A stretch of DNA of 64,000 nt, from positions 3,534,001 to 3,598,000 of the forward strand of contig AP017375.1 in NCBI GenBank assembly GCA_002355455.1, given 5' to 3'. This document shows, one piece after another, positions 11,061-27,535 of the stretch (position 1 is its first letter; each line of letters opens with the position of its first letter). Below the pieces are notes generated by a model. The model was not told the DNA's origin, ran no database searches, and worked only from the letters and a program-made list of their open reading frames with translations. The translations under genes were made by a program, and so were the position numbers. Source of the stretch: Stanieria sp. NIES-3757. Its GTDB lineage: Bacteria; Cyanobacteriota; Cyanobacteriia; Cyanobacteriales; Xenococcaceae.

Positions 11061-11456
11061 CTAACTAAGTTGCTCAATGAGTTTGGCTACTCGCTTTTTG
11101 ATTTCATCTCTGACACGGTGAAAAGTTTCTATTGGTTGTCCATCAGGATCATCTAATTGCCAATCTTCAAAGACTTCTTGAGTCACCCATTCGGTCGGTA
11201 AATTAACCCCACAACCACACATGGAAATAACTGCATCGTAATCATTGGCATTAAAATTACTCAAAGGATCTGAAGTTTGGTTACTGATATCAATTCCAAT
11301 TTCAGACATCACCTTAATAGCAGTGGGATGTACCCGACTGGCTTCCAAACCAGAAGATGTAACTTCAATTTTGCCTTCTCCTAATGTTTTGGCAAAACCT
11401 TCTGCCATCTGGGAACGACAGGAATTTCTTTTGCACACAAACATGACTTTTTTCAT
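11061..11456 (-). CDS. arsC: Arsenate reductase, Synechocystis ArsC type
   Basis: A 131-residue enzyme of the low-molecular-weight tyrosine-phosphatase fold that reduces arsenate to arsenite. The catalytic loop CKRNSCR begins at C8, and the redox pair C80 and C82 sits in MCGCG. C8, C80 and C82 are exactly the residues used by Synechocystis ArsC, which draws on glutathione and glutaredoxin. It is the last intact gene of the arsenic island, after arsH. Its product is exported by the Acr3 pump encoded upstream. Confidence 0.95.
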   Translation of the reverse strand: MKKVMFVCKRNSCRSQMAEGFAKTLGEGKIEVTSSGLEASRVHPTAIKVMSEIGIDISNQTSDPLSNFNANDYDAVISMCGCGVNLPTEWVTQEVFEDWQLDDPDGQPIETFHRVRDEIKKRVAKLIEQLS

Positions 11457-11515: not shown

Positions 11516-12160
11516 TCAAACCGCATTTTTAGCAGTCTGAATAATTGCCTGATTTGTTTTTTCTTTTCTTTCGCTATAGCGATCGGTTAAGTAGTCTACT
11601 TGATCTCGCAGTAGCAGAGTAAACTTGTAAAGTTCTTCCATCACATCCACTACTCTGTCTCGATAGGGAGAATCTTTCATTGTGCCATCCTCATTAAACT
11701 CCTGATAAGCTTTCGCTATCGAGGATTGATTAGGAATAGTAAACATCCGCATCCACCTTCCCAAAATACGCAGGGTATTGACCGCATTAAATGATTGCGA
11801 ACCCCCACTAACCTGCATTACAGCTAAAGTTTTTCCTTGAGTTGGTCTTACTGCACCAATATTTAAAGGTATCCAATCGATCTGATTTTTGAGAATACCC
11901 GTAACATTACCGTGCATTTCGGGAGAAGACCAAACTTGACCTTCTGACCATTGACTTAACTCTCTTAACTCCTGTACCTTGGGATGGGTTTCTTCTACCT
12001 GTCCCCTTAGTGGTAGTTCATGGGGATGAAAAAATTTAACTTCTGCCCCCATGTCGCTAATAATTCGGGCTGCTTCTTCTGCTAACAACCGACTGTAGGA
12101 ACGCTCTCTTAATGAGCCGTATAAAAATAGTATTCTTGGTGGATGATTGAATGTAGTCAT
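11516..12160 (-). CDS. arsH: ArsH NADPH-dependent FMN oxidoreductase
   Basis: A 214-residue flavodoxin-fold protein. The FMN-phosphate loop [10 protein letters not shown] lies near the start, followed by the ArsH signatures WSSPEMHGN and [12 protein letters not shown]. ArsH oxidises trivalent methyl- and aromatic arsenicals to pentavalent forms and can reduce quinones or chromate. It is encoded between the phosphatase gene and arsC, so the island can treat organoarsenicals by both oxidation (ArsH) and C-As cleavage (ArsI). Confidence 0.95.
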
Positions 12161-12181: not shown

Positions 12182-12640
12182 TTATCGTAGTAACTCAGAC
12201 AAATTAAATAAAAATTCTTTTTGTGCTTCCCTGAGTTCGGCTGTAGGACGTGCTGTTTCAACCAGGGAAATCGCGGTTTCTGGTAATTCTCCTTGCGCAA
12301 CTAAATAAGCAGCAAGTAATGTTCCCGTTCGACGATTTCCACTGGTACAGTGAACTACTACTGGTTGATTTTCTTCTATTAATGGTTTGGCAAATCTAAC
12401 AAACTGCTTGACTTGTTCGACAGTTGGCGGTTTACCCCCCGTAACTGGTAGCCACAGAGCTTGAAAGCCAGCCTCTTCATATTTTTTTATCCCTGAAGGC
12501 TCATCCATTACTGAAACAATACCTCGCATCCCTGCTTGATAGAGTTGGGGTAAATCCTCCAAAGGAGGGCGAGACATTCCTGCTAGTTTCTCTGGAATGA
12601 GCCACCAAATATAATCGGGATATAAAACTTGGGCTGACAT
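12182..12640 (-). CDS. Dual-specificity-type protein phosphatase in the arsenic operon
   Basis: A 152-residue cysteine phosphatase with the P-loop HCTSGNRRTG (HCx5R) and an upstream general-acid region. Proteins of this type recur in cyanobacterial arsenic clusters, but their substrate is not established. It lies 21 bp from arsH and 24 bp from the 3' end of arsI, so it is probably co-transcribed with both. A broken copy of its C-terminus lies at 10966-11058. The fold resembles atypical dual-specificity phosphatases; a role on arsenylated or phosphorylated metabolites is possible but unproven. Confidence 0.8.
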   Translation of the reverse strand: MSAQVLYPDYIWWLIPEKLAGMSRPPLEDLPQLYQAGMRGIVSVMDEPSGIKKYEEAGFQALWLPVTGGKPPTVEQVKQFVRFAKPLIEENQPVVVHCTSGNRRTGTLLAAYLVAQGELPETAISLVETARPTAELREAQKEFLFNLSELLR

Positions 12641-12664: not shown

Positions 12665-13084
12665 TTAACAGCTAGCACAAATCGAAGTCGATTCATGAGG
12701 TTGAGTGCATCCGAAAGTACTAGAATCATCTAAAACCGTATAAATCTCCCAAGGTGAGTTATCGGGACCGCTGACCCAAAACTTATCTTGTACTGCATAA
12801 CAGCAGGAAACTTGTTTTTCGGTTTTGGTTTTTAATCCTTTATCTTGTAAACGATGTTCTGCTGCTGTAACTTCAGCCGAGGTTTCTACTTCTACTCCCA
12901 AATGATTGAGAGTCCCTGCTTTAGGAGCATTTTCAATCAGCACTAATTTTAAGGGCGGTTCGGCGACGGCAAAATTAGCATAGCCAGGGCGACGTTTAGC
13001 AGGTTCAACTCCAAATAGTTGGCTATAGAAAGCAACTGACTCATCGATATTACTTACGTTAAGGGCAAGCTGAATACGTGACAT
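12665..13084 (-). CDS. arsI: ArsI C-As lyase (vicinal-oxygen-chelate dioxygenase)
   Basis: A 139-residue type I extradiol dioxygenase-like enzyme that demethylates trivalent organoarsenicals. The vicinal cysteine pair that binds arsenic is seen in KQVSCCYAVQDKFWV, and the Fe(II) ligands fit NHLGVEVE and the glutamate in PWEIYTV. The C-terminus ends in further cysteines (TSICASC). I choose the ATG at 13084 because GAGGAGG precedes it by about 8 nt; an upstream ATG at 13144 lacks this. It sits between sigZ and the phosphatase gene. Confidence 0.92.
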   Translation of the reverse strand: MSRIQLALNVSNIDESVAFYSQLFGVEPAKRRPGYANFAVAEPPLKLVLIENAPKAGTLNHLGVEVETSAEVTAAEHRLQDKGLKTKTEKQVSCCYAVQDKFWVSGPDNSPWEIYTVLDDSSTFGCTQPHESTSICASC

Positions 13085-13188
13085 AATTAAAACCTCCTCA
13101 AAGAGTTTTGTAAAAAAACTGAGGTTAATCCTCTCTAATTTCATAGACGGGGCACTCTATGAAAAGACGCATTAAATAGTCAGCAGCT

Positions 13189-13740
13189 TTAACAACCATT
13201 TGGTTTAACTTGATAATCAATAAGATTGCCCCTAACATCTGAGTTGTAATAGCAGCATTCATGAAACTTGTTTTGAAGCATACGACGACCTCTCTGTACC
13301 CGCGATTTGACTGCCGAATGAGATAGTCCTAGTTTATTTGCTAATTCCTTCTGAGATTTACTTTGTAAGTCCACTATCTCAATAGCTTCACGATATTTTT
13401 CTGGAAGTCGCTCAAGCAAGGGTCGAATGCAGTTAGTCAATTCTTGTCGAATTTGTTCGTATTGCTCTGGTTGTTCGTCCGTCAACATTGTATCGTTCAC
13501 CTTGTCCTGGCGCGAAGTTTCCACACGGGACTTTCGATAATAATCAATTACAGTGTTCCTAGTAATTTGAAACAGCCACGAACGCAATTTTTCTGGCTCT
13601 TTGAGAGTGTTGAGATGTTGATGCGTTTTGATGAAAATTTCTTGAAGTAAGTCATCTACATCTGCTGAATTTTTGACTTGCGATCGCAAGAACTGTTGAA
13701 GGGGGTCTTTATATTGCTGCCAAAGCTGTTGAAATTTCAT
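13189..13740 (-). CDS. sigZ: ECF-type RNA polymerase sigma factor (SigZ-like)
   Basis: A 183-residue group IV sigma factor. Region 2 contains DVDDLLQEIFIKTHQHL and the DNA-melting part WLFQITRNTVIDYYRK; region 4 contains the helix-turn-helix KELANKLGLSHSAVKSRVQRGRRML. The C-terminal extension is unusual for an ECF factor and carries three cysteines (HECCYYN and the final C). No anti-sigma gene is adjacent. It sits between acr3 and arsI, about 40 bp from the end of acr3. A link to arsenic or thiol stress through those cysteines is inference. Confidence 0.88.
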   Translation of the reverse strand: MKFQQLWQQYKDPLQQFLRSQVKNSADVDDLLQEIFIKTHQHLNTLKEPEKLRSWLFQITRNTVIDYYRKSRVETSRQDKVNDTMLTDEQPEQYEQIRQELTNCIRPLLERLPEKYREAIEIVDLQSKSQKELANKLGLSHSAVKSRVQRGRRMLQNKFHECCYYNSDVRGNLIDYQVKPNGC

Positions 13741-13781: not shown

Positions 13782-14936
13782 TTACCGATAAGGACTTGCA
13801 CAACGAGGGTCAAGTAAGGTTGCTTTTTCGGGATGTCTAGGAAACCAATTAGCAGTACGCTTACAAACTTCCACCAGCATTAACATTACAGGTACTTCAA
13901 TCAATACCCCAACCACAGTGGCTAAAGCTGCACCAGAATCTAATCCGAATAAAACTACCGCAGTTGCGATCGCAACTTCAAAGTGATTACTAGCTCCAAT
14001 TAGGGCTGCGGGGGCTGCATCTTCGTAATCTAAATTTAGTTTTAGTGCTGCTACATAGCTAATTAAGAAAATAAAGTTAGTCTGAATAAATAAAGGAACG
14101 GCAATTAATAAAATGTGTAGGGGATTGTTAACGATTAATTCTCCTTTAAAGGCAAATAATAAAATTAAAGTCAACAATAAAGCTGCGATCGCAACTGGAG
14201 AAAGATAGTGTAAAAACTTTTCTTCAAACCATTGTCTTCCTTTATATCTAAAGATCCATTGCCTACTTAAAATTCCTGCTGCTAAGGGCAGCCCGACATA
14301 AATTAAAACTGACAAGACGATTGTTTCCCAAGGTACAGTCAGATTATTGGCAGACAGTAACCATTTTCCTAATGGCGCGTAAAGAAACAACATTGCTAGG
14401 GAATTAACCGCTACCATCACCAAAGTATGTCCTTGGTTACTGTAAGATAAGTAACCCCACATCAGTACCATCGCCGTACAAGGTGCAATTCCCAATAAAA
14501 TCGCACCAGCAATATACGAATTAGCTAGAGTAACTTCTACACCTCTAATCAATTCGGTTTGTGATAATAAAGGCAGAAATAACCAGCCGAGAAAAAACTG
14601 AGCAAATGCTACCATTGTAAACGGCTTTACTAACCAGTTAATTACCAAGGTTAATAATACTGGTTTAGGTGACTTTGCTGCCTTCTTTGCCTGAGAAAAG
14701 TCAATCTTGACCATGATCGGGTACATCATGAAAAACAGACAAATGGCAATGGGAATGGAAACGTTGTAAATGCTTATGGCATCTAAGGATTGAGCTACTC
14801 CAGGAAAGGTTTTTCCGAGAATAATCCCCGCAATAATACAAAGAGCAACCCAGATAGTCAGGTATTTCTCAAAGAAACTCAGTTGGCTGCCAGCTTTAAC
14901 CGCTCGCTTGTTGATTTCTGGACTTTCAGGATTCAT
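13782..14936 (-). CDS. acr3: Arsenite efflux permease Acr3
   Basis: A 384-residue inner-membrane exporter with about ten transmembrane segments, of the BASS/Acr3 superfamily. The conserved essential cysteine lies in [17 protein letters not shown], and a second signature, [16 protein letters not shown], lies near residue 320. It expels As(III) made by ArsC. It follows the second pstS gene by 18 bp, so the two are almost certainly co-transcribed from the ArsR-operator promoter at 16018-16056. Confidence 0.94.
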
Positions 14937-14954: not shown

Positions 14955-15980
14955 TTAAAATCGGGCTTGTTTCCGTAATAGTTCGGGTATAGTGAGGTTG
15001 AATTGCGATTGTCCTTCAAACACAGTTCCCACTTCGCCTTTGTGAAAAGTAACTTTATCGATGTGATAAGCTTCTTCTGGCAGAGGAACATAACCGACTT
15101 GAGTTACTAGCTCTGGTGCTTGAGCAAGATAAAAATCGATAAATTCTCTCAAAGTTTGGTTTTTCTGCGCTGAAGCTGCGTTGACATATATAAATAAGGG
15201 ACGGGACAAAGGTTGGTATTGAGCTTGTTCAACGGTTTCTCTGGAAGGTAAAATTGCTCCCTTACCACTATCGACAGCTACGGCTTTCATTTCATTGGCA
15301 CGTTGCTCATAATAAGCTAAACCGAAGTAACCTAAAGCGTTAGGATCTTGACTGACTCCTTGAACTAAAACATCATCATCTTCACTAGCGGTAAGATCGT
15401 TACGACTTGAACCCGCTTCTCCTATAACAGCTTCAGTAAAATAATCAAAAGTCCCTGAATCTCTCCCAGGAGAATAAAGATTAAGAGGTTGGTCGGGAAA
15501 ATCTGGTCTAACTTGATTCCAACGTGTAATTTTTCCCTCTGCCTCTGGTGACCAAATCTTGGCTAATTCCTCAAGAGTAATGCTTTCTAACCAATTGTTT
15601 TGAGGATTGACCACCACTGTGAGCGCATCAAAGGCAACAGGTAATTCGATATAACGAACCTCTGAGTTGTTACAGGCTTCCATCTCATCGAGTTGAATCG
15701 GACGGGAAGCGTTATTAATATCAGTTTCCCCACGACAAAACTTATCAAACCCACCTCCTGTCCCAGAAAAATTGCTCTCAATATTTACTGGTTGTTTTTG
15801 ATTGGCTTGATACTCTTCGATGATTTTTTTAGTGATGGGATAGACGGTGCTAGAACCATCAACTTTTATTGATTGTTTTTCTTGAGAAGCCAGGGGAATG
15901 GCAACAGCTACCAGTGCTGTACCTACTCCAAAAGCTATGAATTGAGATAGCTTTAGCGGTATTTTGTTCAAAATATTCAT
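14955..15980 (-). CDS. pstS: Phosphate-binding protein PstS (second copy, inside the arsenic operon)
   Basis: A 341-residue periplasmic binding protein with a signal peptide. The phosphate-binding loops [19 protein letters not shown] and [10 protein letters not shown] are all visible. I choose the ATG at 15980, which has GGAG about 6 nt upstream, over a GTG at 15992. It is the first gene after the tandem ArsR operators and lies directly before acr3. Compared with the copy at 18962-20005 it is clearly paralogous but divergent. Two binding proteins with one permease set could allow discrimination between phosphate and arsenate; that is inference. Confidence 0.92.
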   Translation of the reverse strand: MNILNKIPLKLSQFIAFGVGTALVAVAIPLASQEKQSIKVDGSSTVYPITKKIIEEYQANQKQPVNIESNFSGTGGGFDKFCRGETDINNASRPIQLDEMEACNNSEVRYIELPVAFDALTVVVNPQNNWLESITLEELAKIWSPEAEGKITRWNQVRPDFPDQPLNLYSPGRDSGTFDYFTEAVIGEAGSSRNDLTASEDDDVLVQGVSQDPNALGYFGLAYYEQRANEMKAVAVDSGKGAILPSRETVEQAQYQPLSRPLFIYVNAASAQKNQTLREFIDFYLAQAPELVTQVGYVPLPEEAYHIDKVTFHKGEVGTVFEGQSQFNLTIPELLRKQARF

Positions 15981-16017
15981 TTTTTTCTCCACTCACAATT
16001 GTGGAACTGATTTTAAT

Positions 16018-16056
16018 TTTATATCAAATAATCTTGATGCATCAAATATTTTTGAT
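16018..16056 (-). promoter_or_regulatory. Tandem ArsR operators overlapping a promoter
   Basis: Two ATCAA-N6-TTGAT inverted repeats (16023-16038 and 16041-16056) stand in tandem 2 bp apart, between pstB and the second pstS. On the minus strand a possible -35 TTGATG (16045-16040) and -10 TATAAA (16023-16018), 16 bp apart, overlap them. Two direct repeats, each an inverted repeat, is the arrangement reported for ArsR at the Synechocystis arsBHC operator. The site would control pstS, acr3, sigZ, arsI, the phosphatase gene, arsH and arsC. Confidence 0.8.
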
Positions 16057-16091: not shown

Positions 16092-16898
16092 TTAGCCAAA
16101 ACGACCACTGACGTATTCTTGGGTTGATTCCTCCTGGGGATTGTTAAACAGTTGAACTGTTGGGCTATACTCCACTAAATAACCAGAGCGTTTTCCTTCC
16201 TCAGAAGTCACGACATTAAAAAAAGCAGCCATGTCCGAAGCTCGACTTGCCTGTTGCATATTATGAGTTACGATCACGATCGTATAGGTTTGTTTAAGCT
16301 GCTGAATTAACTCTTCAATTTTGAGAGTAGAAATGGGATCGAGGGCAGAACAAGGCTCATCCATCAGCAATACTTCTGGTTCAATAGCGATCGCACGCGC
16401 AATACAGAGACGTTGCTGCTGTCCACCAGAGAGAGATAAACCGTTTTCTCTAAGCTTATCTTTAACTTCATCCCAAAGAGCAGCTTGCTTAAGCGATCGC
16501 TCTATCAGTTTATCCATATCTCCGCGATAGCCATTAACTCTTGCCCCAAACGCAATATTGTCATAGATTGATTTAGGAAATGGATTAGGTTTTTGAAATA
16601 CCATACCGATGCGACGGCGCACTTCTACCGCTTCCATACCTCTACCATACAAATTGCGATCATGATAGGTAATTCGTCCTTCTACTCTTGCTCCAGGAAT
16701 AAGGTCGTTTAAGCGATTTAAACAACGTAGTAGGGTACTTTTTCCGCAACCAGAAGGACCGATAAAAGCAGTAATTTTGTTTTTGGGGATATTCATGTTA
16801 ACTTGACGAACCGCCTCGAAGTTACCGTAGTAAACCGAAACTTGTTCTAGTTGAAAAATTGCTTCTGCTACAGCATTTTCTAGAGTATTAGTGTTCAT
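16092..16898 (-). CDS. pstB: Phosphate ABC transporter ATP-binding protein PstB
   Basis: A 268-residue ATPase of the high-affinity phosphate importer. It shows Walker [10 protein letters not shown], the signature [17 protein letters not shown], Walker [13 protein letters not shown] and the switch region VTHNMQQA. It follows pstA with a 100-bp gap on the same strand and ends just before the tandem ArsR operators, which begin a new transcription unit. Confidence 0.95.
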
Positions 16899-16998: not shown

Positions 16999-17925
16999 TT
17001 ACTTGTCTTGTTGAAACTTATTACGTAACCAAACTGCGGTAGCATTCATCAACAGAAGTACTACCATCAGTACAATAATTCCTGCTGCTGCTAAGGTGTG
17101 AAAGTCCTTTTGAGGACGGGAAACCCAGTTGAAAATTTGGATAGGTAAAGCGGTAAATGGGGTTTGCAAACCTTCTAGAGATAGGGGAGGTAAAAAAGCA
17201 ATAAAAGTTAAAGCTCCAATGGTAATTAAAGGCGCAGTTTCACCAATAGCACGAGAAAGAGCTAGAATTGTCCCCGTCAAAATTCCTGGAAATGCCAGTG
17301 GAAAAACCTGAGAACTAATTACTTGCCAGCGCGTTGCCCCTAGGGCAAATCCTGCTTGACGGAGACTATCGGGAACCGCCCGCAGAGCTTCTCTAGTTGC
17401 GACAATCACAATGGGAAGAACTAATAAGCTGAGAGTCATCGCACCTGCTAAGACGCTGCGACCACCAGTAATTGGCTCCATGACTCGTACAAATACAGCC
17501 AGACCTAGCAAACCGTAAATAATCGAAGGAACAGCAGCAAGATTACTGATATTTACCTCAATAACCTTGGCATACCAGGTATCTTTCACAAATTCTTCTA
17601 GAAAAATACCTGCACCCACACCAAGGGGAAAGGTTAAAATAGCAGTCATTAGCATTAGCCAAATCGTTCCCACTAAGGCTGATTTTAAACCCGCACGACT
17701 AGCGCGACGGGAGGGAAATTCACTTAAAAGTGTCCAATCTAAACGGGGTAAACCGTCAATAAGCACATCAACGAGCAAAACAACTAGAGCGACCAATCCA
17801 ATAATTACCGCCGTCCAGCAGACAATTTGAAAAATGCGATCAATCATAAAGCGTCGGGACAAACCGACATCAAAGTTAGATTGATTTTGCTGCGATGAAA
17901 ATTGGGAAGAATTATTGATGTTCAT
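16999..17925 (-). CDS. pstA: Phosphate ABC transporter permease PstA
   Basis: A 308-residue permease with about six transmembrane helices and the EAA-type loop [23 protein letters not shown] (quoted in part). The start is set at 17925 because this ATG overlaps the pstC stop as ATGA, a usual sign of translational coupling; an upstream start at 17958 would sit inside pstC. With PstC it forms the phosphate channel in the inner membrane. Confidence 0.94.
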
Positions 17926-18860
17926 TCGTATTTTTGTTGAAAACGACGGACAAACCAAAAGCTAAAAACATTCAAAACTAGCGTAATTATGAACAAAGTC
18001 AAACCTACGGCGTAGATTGTTTTAAAGGCCAAAGAACCAGCAGGAGCATCCCCCAAACTAACCTGAACGATATAGGCAGTCATCGTAGCAACCGGGACGA
18101 GAGGATTAAGAGTTAGAGTGGGACTTTGACCCGCAGCAATGGTAACAATCATCGTTTCTCCTACAGCACGAGAAACTCCCAGAATAAAGGAAGCGACAAT
18201 TCCTGATAGGGCAGAGGGAATTACTACGCCTAAAATTACTTCCCGTTTGGTTGACCCCAGAGCGTAAGCTCCCTGCCTTAAGCTATTGGGAACTGCATAA
18301 ATTGCATCTTCACTAAGAGACGCAACCGTAGGGATGATCGCAATACCCAATACTATTCCTGCACTTAGGGAGTTAAACGGCTGCATACCTGGAATAAAAC
18401 TACGCAGTATGGGAGTGACAAATAAAAGAGCAAAATAACCGTATACTACGGTCGGCACACCAGCCAGAATCTCCAAAGCTGGTTTGAGCCAGCGACGCAG
18501 AGAACGGGGAGCGTATTCGCTCAAGCAAACGGCAGAAAGCAAACCCAAAGGTAGAGCTACTGCTACTGCAATTACTGAAGTCAAAAAGGTCGCGCTAATT
18601 AGGACAAAAATTCCGTATTCTTTCTGGGTAAATAGGGGAGTCCATTGGGTGTCTGTTAAGAAATTAACCAAAGGAACTTCCTGAAAGAAAGGAATGGCAT
18701 CCACCAGTAAAGTAATAACAATGCCGAATGTAGTTAAAACAGAAATTAGGGCAAACAATCCAAAGATGGCGACAATAGTTCTCTGTAGCCATTTGTTCAG
18801 ACTACGATTTGGTCGCCACCTCTTACTTCGGTCGAATTGTTCAAACGAACTGATACTCAT
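17922..18860 (-). CDS. pstC: Phosphate ABC transporter permease PstC
   Basis: A 312-residue permease with about six transmembrane segments and the conserved loop [19 protein letters not shown]. It heterodimerises with PstA. The stop overlaps the pstA start by 4 bp. The gene is 101 bp downstream of the first pstS in the island. Confidence 0.94.
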
Positions 18861-18961: not shown

Positions 18962-20005
18962 TTATTGAGCGAGTACCTCTGTAAGTTTTACTCCCACGGT
19001 AGAACCACCTTCAAAAACTGTTCCCGTGGTTTGATTTTCCAAACGAGTTTGCACTGCTTGATATACTCCTTCTGTTAAAGGAACGTAACCAACTTCACTT
19101 ACTAGTTCGCTATTGGCAGGATCCATATAATAGTTGACAAAACTCTGCACTTCTGGACGAGACAAAGCCTCTTTTTTAACGTAGATAAAGATAGGACGTG
19201 CTAATGGTTGATAGGTACTGTCATCTACTGTTGCTACTCCAGGAGCAACACAACCATCTCCATTACTCGGATCTCCGTCGTCAATACTGATGGCTTTGAG
19301 ACTGTTTTGGTTTTCTTCATAGTAAGCTAAACCAAAATAACCCAAGGCATTGGGGTCGTTAGCCACACCCTGCACGATGACATTATCATCTTCACTAGCA
19401 GTATAGTCACCACGACTAGCTCCTTCTTCACCGTTAATAGCATCAGTAAAGTAGTCAAATGTCCCCGAATCAGTACCCGCTCCGTAAAGAGTCAGTTCTT
19501 GATCTGGAAACTCTGGTCTGACTTGATTCCAGTTGGTAATCTTACCCTGAGCTGCTGGTTCCCAGATTTTTTTAAGTTCTTCAGTAGTCAAGCAGTCTAA
19601 CCAATCATTTTGAGGGTTTGCTACCACTGATAGTGCATCGTAAGCAACTGGCAGTTCGATATACTCAATTCCTGCTTGCTGACAAAGTTCTATTTCTTCA
19701 GTTTTAATGGGACGGGAAGCATCTTGAATATCGGTTTCTCCCGCACAGAATTTTTTAAAACCACCTCCAGTACCAGAAATTCCTACTGTTATTCTAGTTC
19801 CAGGATTGGCTATTTGAAATTCTTCCGCCATTGCTTCGGTGATGGGAAATACCGTACTTGAACCGTCAACCGTAATCAATCCACCATCTTGCTGCTTATT
19901 AGCATTGGAAGCAAAGGATTGAGTGGCTACGCTACCAACAGATACACTGGCGAGCAAAATAGCTAGGGTTGAACTTAAAGGAAGCTGATATTTCTGCTTC
20001 ATCAT
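18962..20005 (-). CDS. pstS: Phosphate-binding protein PstS (first copy in the island)
   Basis: A 347-residue exported phosphate-binding protein. After a signal peptide ending near ATQSFAS, the ligand loops [19 protein letters not shown] and [10 protein letters not shown] are intact. It heads the pstS-pstC-pstA-pstB set. A single ATCAA-N6-TTGAT site lies 126 bp upstream of its start, so ArsR may control it. A second, divergent pstS lies at 14955-15980. Confidence 0.93.
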
Positions 20006-20130: not shown

Positions 20131-20146
20131 ATCAAAAAAAGTTGAT
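20131..20146 (-). promoter_or_regulatory. Predicted ArsR operator upstream of pstSCAB
   Basis: One perfect ATCAA-N6-TTGAT inverted repeat, extended by flanking T and A to TATCAA-N6-TTGATA, lies between arsR and the first pstS. It has the same half-sites and spacing as the tandem pair at 16023-16056, suggesting the same regulator binds both. No clear second copy sits next to it. Confidence 0.65.
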
Positions 20147-20247: not shown

Positions 20248-20565
20248 TTAATCACAGCCTCTTGCTGGTAAAATATCTCCAAAACGTCGATATTCGGCTA
20301 AATACTGTTCGAGAACAATAAACTGAGCCAAATTGAGACTATAGTAAATCCAACGTCCTTCTTGTCGAGCGCGAACGAGATTGGCTTCCTTGAGAGTTTT
20401 TAGATGGAAAGAAAGTTTCGATTGATTTACCTCTAGTTTGTTACACAGTTCACAAACACATAACTCATGAGAGTGCAACAGTTCGATAATTTGTAACCTT
20501 AAGGGTTCTGATAGCGCGTGAAAACCAGCCCAAATTTGGGTTAAATCTGAAGTAGTAACTTGCAT
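20248..20565 (-). CDS. arsR: ArsR-family arsenic-responsive repressor
   Basis: A 105-residue winged-helix repressor. I start it at the ATG at 20565; a longer frame from 20670 adds residues that do not resemble the family. The recognition helix is CELCNKLEVNQSKLSFHLKTL, quoted in part as NQSKLSFHLKTL. The As(III) site C36-V-C38-E-L-C41 lies in the DNA-binding helix, as in classical ArsR, so arsenite or antimonite would release it from DNA. A near-match to its operator overlaps its own start codon. It heads the island and probably represses both pst and ars units. Confidence 0.93.
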   Translation of the reverse strand: MQVTTSDLTQIWAGFHALSEPLRLQIIELLHSHELCVCELCNKLEVNQSKLSFHLKTLKEANLVRARQEGRWIYYSLNLAQFIVLEQYLAEYRRFGDILPARGCD

Positions 20566-20579
20566 CAAATTTATTTGAA
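20564..20579 (-). promoter_or_regulatory. Imperfect ArsR operator over the arsR start codon
   Basis: The sequence ATCAAATTTATTTGAA keeps one full half-site, the 6-bp spacer and four of five bases of the other half-site of the ATCAA-N6-TTGAT motif. It overlaps the arsR ATG, which would suit weak autorepression. Confidence 0.45.
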
Positions 20580-25741: not shown

Positions 25742-27535
25742 TTAATAATTTAAACGATTAGTATAAGCAGAAATTGCTATTTCCTTTGCTTGATCTTGAG
25801 GACTACCTCTAATTGACTGTTTGCTTTCCTCGATCACAATTCCTGCTTTGGCAGCCTGAGCCTTGATATTTTCCATTAATCTGCCGTAACTCCATTGATG
25901 AACATTAACTCTATACTGCTTGGCGTATTTTTTTTGTCCTTCTTTGTTGCCAGGAATTTTTTGTTCTGCTAAAGCTTGAATTTCGCTTTGAACTATTTCC
26001 CGCATATTCCCTAGTTTTGGTAATACTATGCTTCCTACTTGGTAAGTTTTAGCTAGATTAACGATCGCATTGGCTAACAAACGGTCTAAATGTTGACCTA
26101 ATTTTGATTCTCCCAATTGATTGTTGGCATGATGTTTTTGATTGAGATGACGTTGGTGAGATAAAAAGCTTTTTTGTCGTCTCTGGCGATTGAGAAGTTG
26201 ATAATTATCTCCCAGTAATTGTTTAGTGCTGCGATAAGTAATTACCTTTCCTGAGATGGCATCAATCACTGCTGCTGTAGCTGGTTTTTCTAGTCCCATA
26301 TAAATACCTAATAAAATATGAGCTTGACCTTGATAAAGAGGTCGATCGGGACGAGGAAAAGGGTTGTTAATTCGAGAAAGACAAGTTTGTTTGCGTTTGA
26401 CAAAAGCTTGTTGTTTGGCATTTAAATCGCCTTTTTCTTTCATGCGAGTGAGAGTTGTAGCAATTTCAGCAGCTTTTTCTTGTCTTACCTGTTCTGTTCC
26501 TTCAGCAGTTAATAAACGAGTACCTAGTGTACAGTAAAGAGTGAGATGATTGACATTCCAAGGTTCGCCTTTCCCTTCGCCCTCTTGCCAAGCAATTCTT
26601 GACGAGCGCAACAAAAATAATGCACTCGAATGAAGATTTTTACTAGCTTTTTTGACTTCTTGGTCTTGGTAAAAACGTTGAAATAAAGGTAGTTGGCGTT
26701 GGTCGCAATAAATTTCAAAAATATGTTCGCCCAAGCCACTAAAACGAACGCACAAGCGACTTTTTTCGTTTTTAGACCAAGTCATGTCTTCGTTGGTTTC
26801 GTAGGTAATAGGAAAAGGAACAGATTTGGGTTTAGTTAAGAGTATGTCTTGCCACAATTTAGCTTGTACTTCATCCTGGGGTACGTGAGTTGCGACAGTA
26901 ATCAGAGTATCTAACCATTGTTGCCCAGTTAAATCTCTTCCTTTGGGGGTTTGGCTATTAAGCTTTTTGAGCAGTCGCTCGACCTTGATTTCAGTTTTAC
27001 GGCGACGTTTGGCAAATTTTTTGGGGTCTTCTGGTTTTTGCCTCAATCTACAGCCATTTTTGATTAAGTAAATAATGGCACTGCGACGGAGAAGATTTTT
27101 GGTCTGCTCAAATTTCTCAAACAGAGTGTTGGATAAGGTGCTATCTTCACTAACTTTGAGCGATTCGAGAATTTCTTTAGCTGTGGCGCGAATTGTCTCT
27201 AAACTAGCCTGAGTTTCCTCTACTAATTCTTCATCGCTTTTTAGAATGGCTAGCCAGCGTTGTTGTCCTTGAAGTCGGTACTTTAATTGTTTCTGAAGCT
27301 TTAACCAAGACTTATAAATGTATGTGACAAGCGCGATCGCACTTGTATAAAACCTTGCGGGTTGACCGATGTAGCGAGGGTCGGTTTTAAGAGGTTCGCA
27401 AAGATTTTTAATTGTACCAATAGGAATTTTCCCTTTAGTTTTCCAGGTTTCAAAGTCAAGATAATTTGCAAAATTTTTACCGCAAAAAATAGCTTGGAAA
27501 ATAATTTCAACAACAGACTAATAAGTTTACTTGGA
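25742..27535 (-). pseudogene. cas12k: cas12k, N-terminally truncated and frameshifted
   Basis: About 590 codons of Cas12k, the RNA-guided DNA-binding effector of V-K transposons (normally near 640 residues). The long open part, from about 27480 to 25742, includes FETWKTKGKIP, EPLKTDPRYIGQPARFYTSA, FAKRRRKTEIKVERLL, TNEDMTWSKNEK, GEGKGEPWNVNHLTLYC and KKYAKQYRVNVHQWSYGRL. It has no ATG, GTG or TTG before a TTG at 27046. Near 27480-27520 the frame shifts; LISLLLKLF, matching family residues about 30-40, is read in another frame. The first 28 or so residues are missing, and the sequence runs into the helicase 3' end at 27547. A 434-residue product from 27046 would lack the N-terminal lobe. Confidence 0.88.

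Follow-up and report, generated by a model that had tools for sequence, protein, structure and literature searches.

Two adjacent palindromes within a single promoter very probably switch on a phosphate-binding protein, PstS2, together with the arsenic-resistance genes that follow it. They lie in the window, by which we mean the whole 64,000-nucleotide stretch analysed (G000:C1:3534001-3598000), in a cyanobacterial genome of 5.46 Mb and 2 contigs. A preliminary description of this DNA was right in its core reading, and its main claim, the co-regulation of PstS with arsenic genes, is already in print. What is new is the class-wide geometry of the operator, a separate arsenic lineage of PstS and, above all, an element that accompanies the sigma factor gene sigZ.

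Gene organization of the locus

The genes run on the minus strand, from 20565 down to 11061, in the order arsR-pstS1-pstC-pstA-pstB-pstS2-acr3-sigZ-arsI-phosphatase-arsH-arsC. Names come from NCBIfam and Pfam matches, mostly above cut-off:

20248-20565, minus strand: arsR, ArsR/SmtB metalloregulator with C-V-C-E-L-C (NF033788, 95.1 bits, cut-off 55; PF01022, 59 bits)
18962-20005, minus strand: pstS1, transporter-linked PstS branch (TIGR02136, 318 bits; tree)
17922-18860, minus strand: pstC (TIGR02138, 267 bits)
16999-17925, minus strand: pstA (weaker match to the pstC model; pstS-C-A-B order)
16092-16898, minus strand: pstB (TIGR00972, 390 bits)
14955-15980, minus strand: pstS2, arsenic-linked PstS branch (TIGR02136, 296 bits; tree)
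13782-14936, minus strand: acr3, arsenite efflux (TIGR00832, 426 bits)
13189-13740, minus strand: sigZ, ECF sigma factor (TIGR02959, 208.2 bits, cut-off 168.65; NF007215, 224.7, cut-off 212)
12665-13084, minus strand: arsI, organoarsenical C-As lyase family (NF041414, 199 bits, cut-off 116)
12182-12640, minus strand: dual-specificity-type phosphatase (PF22784/PF22785)
11516-12160, minus strand: arsH (TIGR02690, 392 bits)
11061-11456, minus strand: arsC, glutaredoxin-type arsenate reductase (TIGR02689, 249 bits)

The arsI start was corrected to 13084, which is conserved among relatives; the alternative, longer ORF has its start at 13144, within the -10 region of the candidate SigZ promoter described below. 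With this start, the successive gaps from pstS2 to arsC on the minus strand are 18, 41, 104, 24, 21 and 59 bp, so the close spacing of these genes noted in the preliminary description is confirmed, and a sequence scan found no terminator-like site between them on this strand. A second pst locus lies elsewhere in the genome (C1:5202453-5204198). At 25742-27046 of the window an ORF resembles, as judged by eye, a transposon- or CRISPR-associated nuclease-like protein.

ArsR-type sites in the window and in the genome

Copies of ATCAA-N6-TTGAT and the promoter hexamers around them were located at the following places:

16041-16056, minus strand: predicted operator site 1 (distal), exact match; its right half TTGATG (16045-16040) is also the -35 hexamer (TTGATG-18-TAAAAT in the promoter scan)
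16023-16038, minus strand: predicted operator site 2 (proximal), exact match in conserved phase, filling the -35/-10 spacer of the pstS2 promoter
16016-16023, minus strand: -10 region, TAAAAT (16021-16016) or TATAAA (16023-16018) in the promoter scan; TATAAT there in the sister locus L303
20131-20146, minus strand: single ArsR-type site, exact match, 141-126 bp before pstS1, lacking a -35 at offset -7
20564-20579, minus strand: ArsR-type site with 1 mismatch, covering bases 1 and 2 of the arsR start codon (20565-20563)
15858-15873, no strand assigned: fourth exact copy of the motif, within the pstS2 coding sequence

The preliminary description had reported the exact tandem with 2 bp between its members, its overlap with a promoter, one exact copy before the first pstS and a near copy over arsR. 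All of these were found, the overlap being seen both in the promoter scan and in a phase conserved in relatives. Absent from its list was the exact copy within pstS2. We reject this copy as an operator: it recurs at the same codon position, over the codons of S-I-K-V-D, in loci L303 and L304, and is therefore put down to coding constraint. The site before pstS1 should be weaker, since the -35 seen elsewhere is missing from it. A Pho-box-like repeat, scanned for with a Pho-box consensus, was not found before pstS2, and a weak one was found before pstS1.

The bare motif cannot be regarded as unique, as it has 37 exact places genome-wide against 16 for a reversed-pattern control, and 29 of the 33 exact sites outside the cluster fall inside ORFs of at least 80 aa. 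Four exact sites within 4.3 kb, where about 0.03 are expected from the genome rate, are nevertheless too many for the cluster to be due to chance, and no other pair of exact sites 18 bp apart occurs across the genome. The pattern TTGACA-N-site-ATAAT, with at most 3 mismatches, matches two places, of which one is the window promoter and the other has a damaged half-site; the control gave 0. The promoter-embedded form is essentially unique in this genome. The preliminary description had named a motif common throughout the genome as evidence against its proposal. This applies to the bare motif and does not apply to the promoter-phased form. The other intergenic exact sites were rejected as regulon members by ORF reading of the neighbouring genes: L003 stands before an SbcC-like gene, L011 precedes an IS200-like transposase, and near L010 and L023 no gene has an evident link to arsenic.

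Operator geometry across cyanobacteria

Matches to acr3 were found in 175 of the 388 genomes of the class, from which 60 loci of 60 genomes were sampled; most of them came from the top of the score ranking, and the counts are therefore weighted towards close relatives. A search of the upstream 250 bp that tolerated one mismatch placed the motif before pstS2 in 23 of 32 regions (0.75 in shuffles; window counted), arsR in 26 of 47 (1.0 in shuffles) and acr3 in 22 of 61 (1.35 in shuffles). Many acr3 genes need no site of their own because they often stand close behind pstS. Many loci have a site at -14 relative to the start of arsR.

The position of the site relative to promoter hexamers is strikingly constant. 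We compared 62 distinct sites, drawn from 41 loci. In 37 of them a hexamer within 2 mismatches of TTGACA begins exactly 7 bases upstream of the site, and 28 of these hexamers are within 1 mismatch; no more than 7 sites share any other offset outside the site. Offset +11 also scores high, an effect of the half-site TTGAT being itself -35-like. A TATAAT-like hexamer stands at offset +15 in 37 of the 62. From a -35 at offset -7 and a -10 at +15 it follows that the site fills the spacer.

A second site lies exactly 18 bp away in 18 loci, the next most frequent distances being 53 bp (5 loci) and 29 bp (4). The arsR set gave 28 family matches, of which 20 were fetched (family and own genome), 2 were already in the sample and 6 were left out; the 18-bp tandem is present in 11 of the 14 fetched loci (out of 20) that had regions for testing. 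We can explain this period by the right half of site 1, TTGATG, sitting on the -35 phase of site 2. It follows that the window promoter has TTGATG as its -35 and TAAAAT or TATAAA as its -10, and the sister locus L303 has TATATAAT there. A palindrome at a fixed -35/-10 phase, conserved in relatives, makes the tandem a predicted promoter-overlapping ArsR-type operator, for which repression by steric exclusion would be the natural reading.

The ArsR regulator and its paralogue

CxCxxC is the arsenite site of ArsR/SmtB metalloregulators, and the window ArsR has this pattern as CVCELC. It is kept in 42 of the 47 ArsR proteins at the examined loci, the other 5 missing the third cysteine. A paralogue elsewhere in the genome (G000:C1:1258744-1259046; L321) is 67% identical to the window ArsR, keeps CxCxxC and has an ArsR-type site at its own start codon; none of the arsenic genes of the query set adjoins it. 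Since the paralogue has its own start-codon site, cross-regulation between the two proteins appears possible.

Two lineages of PstS

In a tree of 69 distinct PstS proteins, 34 acr3-linked ones and 2 unlabelled ones fall on one side (100/98) and 26 pstCAB-linked ones on the other, so that the tree sets arsenic-linked PstS apart as a branch separate from transporter-linked PstS. It also rejects the notion that pstS2 is a local copy of pstS1, and the two proteins of this genome are 52% identical. The operator follows the same division: a site with at most 1 mismatch precedes 31 of the 34 arsenic-linked pstS genes versus 6 of the 26 transporter-linked ones, and a promoter-phased site 25 of 34 versus 1 of 26. 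The sole phased transporter-linked case, G372 (L190), has a one-mismatch site behind a perfect TTGACA before its pstS, which the tree places closest to the window pstS1. In that locus (L190 3244-6284, of another family) pstSCA is convergent with arsH-arsC.

Immediately before DSGT, 25 of 26 transporter-linked PstS proteins have Thr, against 3 of the 34 that are arsenic-linked. This difference in the loop hints at an altered selectivity between phosphate and arsenate. The hint is a weak one because the nearest solved relative, 4jwo, also differs at that place, its binding loop being likewise without the TD pair in the alignment.

The pst block and the sister genome

In the nearest relatives from other genera, arsR is followed directly by pstS2 or acr3. 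Compared with these, pstSCAB between arsR and pstS2 reads as a genus-level insertion, which is partly deleted in a sister genome. This genome, G398 of the same genus (L303), is without window 20180-16409 (deletion at L303 1449-1455), including the single site before pstS1 (20131-20146), and a pstB stub remains between arsR and the tandem. A further deletion, of 13751-12509 (at L303 4102-4104), has removed sigZ and arsI and cut off the 5' portion of the phosphatase gene, a phosphatase remnant being left behind. On the simplest reading, the genus ancestor had the full locus and G398 lost parts of it. As sigZ, arsI and most of pstSCAB were lost in the sister, none of them would be essential.

SigZ and its candidate promoter

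One more feature lies in the gap between sigZ and arsI:

13143-13171, minus strand: candidate SigZ promoter, TGCGTCTTT-N12-CCGTCTAT

Few genomes of the class carry sigZ: at an E value of at most 1e-35 it is found in 10 of 388. The gene adjoins arsI in L203 (Symploca MAG), L204 (the L180 record, Pseudanabaenales MAG), L206 (Xenococcaceae MAG, with sigZ in two frames) and L182 (in the order arsI-sigZ), and is not beside arsI in L181/L205 (Acaryochloris MAG). The sequence TGCGTCTTT-N12-CCGTCTAT is unchanged in the sigZ-arsI gap of the window, L203, L204 and L206 and near-perfect in L182. There the neighbouring intergenic sequence has diverged, and all fixed bases of the element are retained.

Beside sigZ in several phyla the element has the consensus T[GT]CGTCTTTT-N12-CGTCT[TA]. 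Its two CGTC boxes 16 bp apart have a shape that we take to resemble ECF promoters. In the SigZ sample (L203-L282, the best 80 of at least 378 loci in a genome-wide scan, which are not phylogenetically independent), 55 of the 80 loci have CGTC-N16-CGTCT no farther than 1.3 kb from sigZ and 25 have no exact element in that range; the density is 0.228 per kb near sigZ versus 0.008 per kb farther off, and enrichment is confined to the 16-bp spacing, every other spacing from 10 to 23 giving at most 5 loci. The 80 arsR/acr3 loci where no sigZ was seen, 1.06 Mb in all, contain 3 copies. In this genome the window element has 0 mismatches. The next best matches, at six places, have 3, and the control has 12 such matches.

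A stricter pattern gave 56 element copies in the same best 80 of at least 378 SigZ loci, and the next ORF was glutathione-transferase-like with CPFVQR in 29 (Pfam on two), ArsH by blastp in 10, ArsM in 3 (all above the NCBIfam cut-off), arsI in 2 and another or an unassigned ORF in 12. NCBIfam placed one of two ArsH proteins scanned, out of the ten, above the cut-off and the other, an incomplete frame, below it. The glutathione-transferase gene follows the element in marine bacteria. In Marinifilum (L218, L223, L226, L229, L231, L244) a Cys-rich ORF of 83-84 residues stands directly after the element; the one scanned matched no Pfam family.

In two annotated plasmid neighbourhoods a link between SigZ and arsenic was not seen. 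The open-access papers searched yielded neither an arsenic link, promoter motif or role for SigZ nor the conserved element T[GT]CGTCTTTT-N12-CGTCT beside sigZ.

Discussion

The anatomy of the locus, the conservation and phase of its sites and the lineage of PstS2 can be read from sequence. From them we infer ArsR binding, induction, a relay through SigZ and a function for PstS2, as follows. ArsR, from the neighbouring gene or the paralogue, would bind as dimers to the two adjacent palindromes and, as these cover the -35 and the spacer of the pstS2 promoter, exclude RNA polymerase. Arsenite on the CxCxxC cysteines would release ArsR and turn on pstS2-acr3-sigZ and the genes behind. PstS2, of the arsenic-specialised lineage, probably alters how the Pst transporter handles phosphate versus arsenate. 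In a feed-forward branch directed against methylated arsenic, SigZ would then activate a further promoter, at 13171-13143, upstream of arsI-phosphatase-arsH-arsC. We consider this explanation as a whole, from the ArsR switch on the pstS2 promoter to the SigZ relay onto arsI and beyond, to be probable. The preliminary description had put all these genes under one switch. That part stands insofar as promoter-embedded, conserved sites mark arsenic-linked pstS and the arsR start, and it must be amended insofar as a second, SigZ-type promoter seems to be present between sigZ and arsI.

Given the SigZ element, an ArsR-SigZ-arsI layout of the relay is likely. A wider reading is a two-stage arsenic circuit with a promoter class of SigZ's own, in which SigZ would be a sigma factor of organic-arsenic detoxification in several phyla. 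It is suggested by the element preceding arsI, arsH and arsM next to sigZ and, among marine bacteria, the glutathione-transferase gene, and we regard the chances for and against it as evenly balanced.

It might be objected that the ATCAA-N6-TTGAT sites are chance AT-rich palindromes, given 37 exact copies in the genome; yet their enrichment, phase and tandem spacing are conserved over many genomes, and the conserved position refutes this view in silico, so that we give it next to no credence. The regulator could also be another protein of the ArsR family, such as the paralogue, which with its 67% identity, its CxCxxC and the similar site at its start codon would be equipped to bind the tandem in place of the neighbouring ArsR. 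However, in most loci examined pstS2 or acr3 is preceded by an arsR of the same orientation, and the neighbouring arsR has a site at its own start, which makes a different binder improbable.

The promoter might respond mainly to phosphate starvation, with the arsenic genes following passively: Crocosphaera arsB is induced by phosphate starvation, as cited in the excerpted review PMC4284471, and sphX of the Nodularia ars cluster is up to about 2-fold higher under P limitation in the excerpts of PMC9846622. In the window, however, the conserved element is an ArsR-type site and the Pho-box scan gave nothing before pstS2 and a weak repeat before pstS1, and we hold a mainly phosphate-driven promoter to be very unlikely. 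Somewhat better placed, though still unlikely, is the alternative to the relay, in which the ArsR promoter alone transcribes the row and the element before arsI is an inactive leftover of a transferred sigZ-arsI cassette. The sigZ-arsI pair does occur at other loci whose read stretch shows no acr3, and it is missing from the sister genome; fixed bases that have all been kept between diverged intergenic flanks speak against an inactive leftover.

If the preferred explanation, ArsR control of pstS2 with a relay through SigZ, is true, cyanobacteria would have a concrete and widespread ArsR operator architecture usable for reading regulons from sequence. A distinct PstS lineage would travel with arsenite efflux, and discrimination between arsenate and phosphate therefore becomes testable on the PstS1/PstS2 pair. 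SigZ would gain a promoter sequence, and methylated arsenic would be its likely signal.

Several known systems resemble the locus in part. Cyanobacterial operons of the pstS-acr3-arsC type are proposed in the review PMC4284471, whose excerpts infer arsenic co-regulation from gene order, and excerpts of PMC3610870 and PMC9846622 describe Nodularia arsR-sphX-gap-arsJ (and acr3-arsH) genes. These clusters likewise bring together arsR, pstS (sphX), acr3 and arsH or arsC; unlike them, as far as the excerpts of the three accounts extend, the window has the inserted pstSCAB, sigZ, arsI and an internal candidate promoter of SigZ type. The same excerpts give no operator anatomy. In Agrobacterium tumefaciens 5A, ArsR1 represses pstS1-phoB1 and arsenite relieves the repression, binding being seen by mobility shift (excerpts of PMC7965956); there too phosphate-binding/Pst genes lie near the ars locus, but motifs and phylum differ from those of the window.

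In Synechocystis, ArsR controls an acr3-type arsB together with arsH and arsC (excerpts of PMC4010505, on the ArsR regulon). The preliminary description gives the operator of this ArsR as two direct repeats, each of them an inverted repeat; the window tandem has such a form and may be of this type. According to the excerpts of PMC4010505, the Synechocystis arsR is, unlike in the window, unlinked and the operon is without pstS, and arsenic lowers the expression of phosphate-transport genes, which counts against our explanation. Arsenic islands with pst operons are described in the excerpts of PMC3834237: a pst operon stands beside ars genes and a second pst elsewhere, as in this genome, whereas the islands centre on arsenite oxidase, unlike the window, and cyanobacteria go unmentioned in that text. 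Finally, the window SigZ belongs with the SigZ ECF family, scoring above the curated cut-offs of TIGR02959 and NF007215, and its gene forms part of an ArsR-type operon in which the candidate SigZ promoter precedes arsI.
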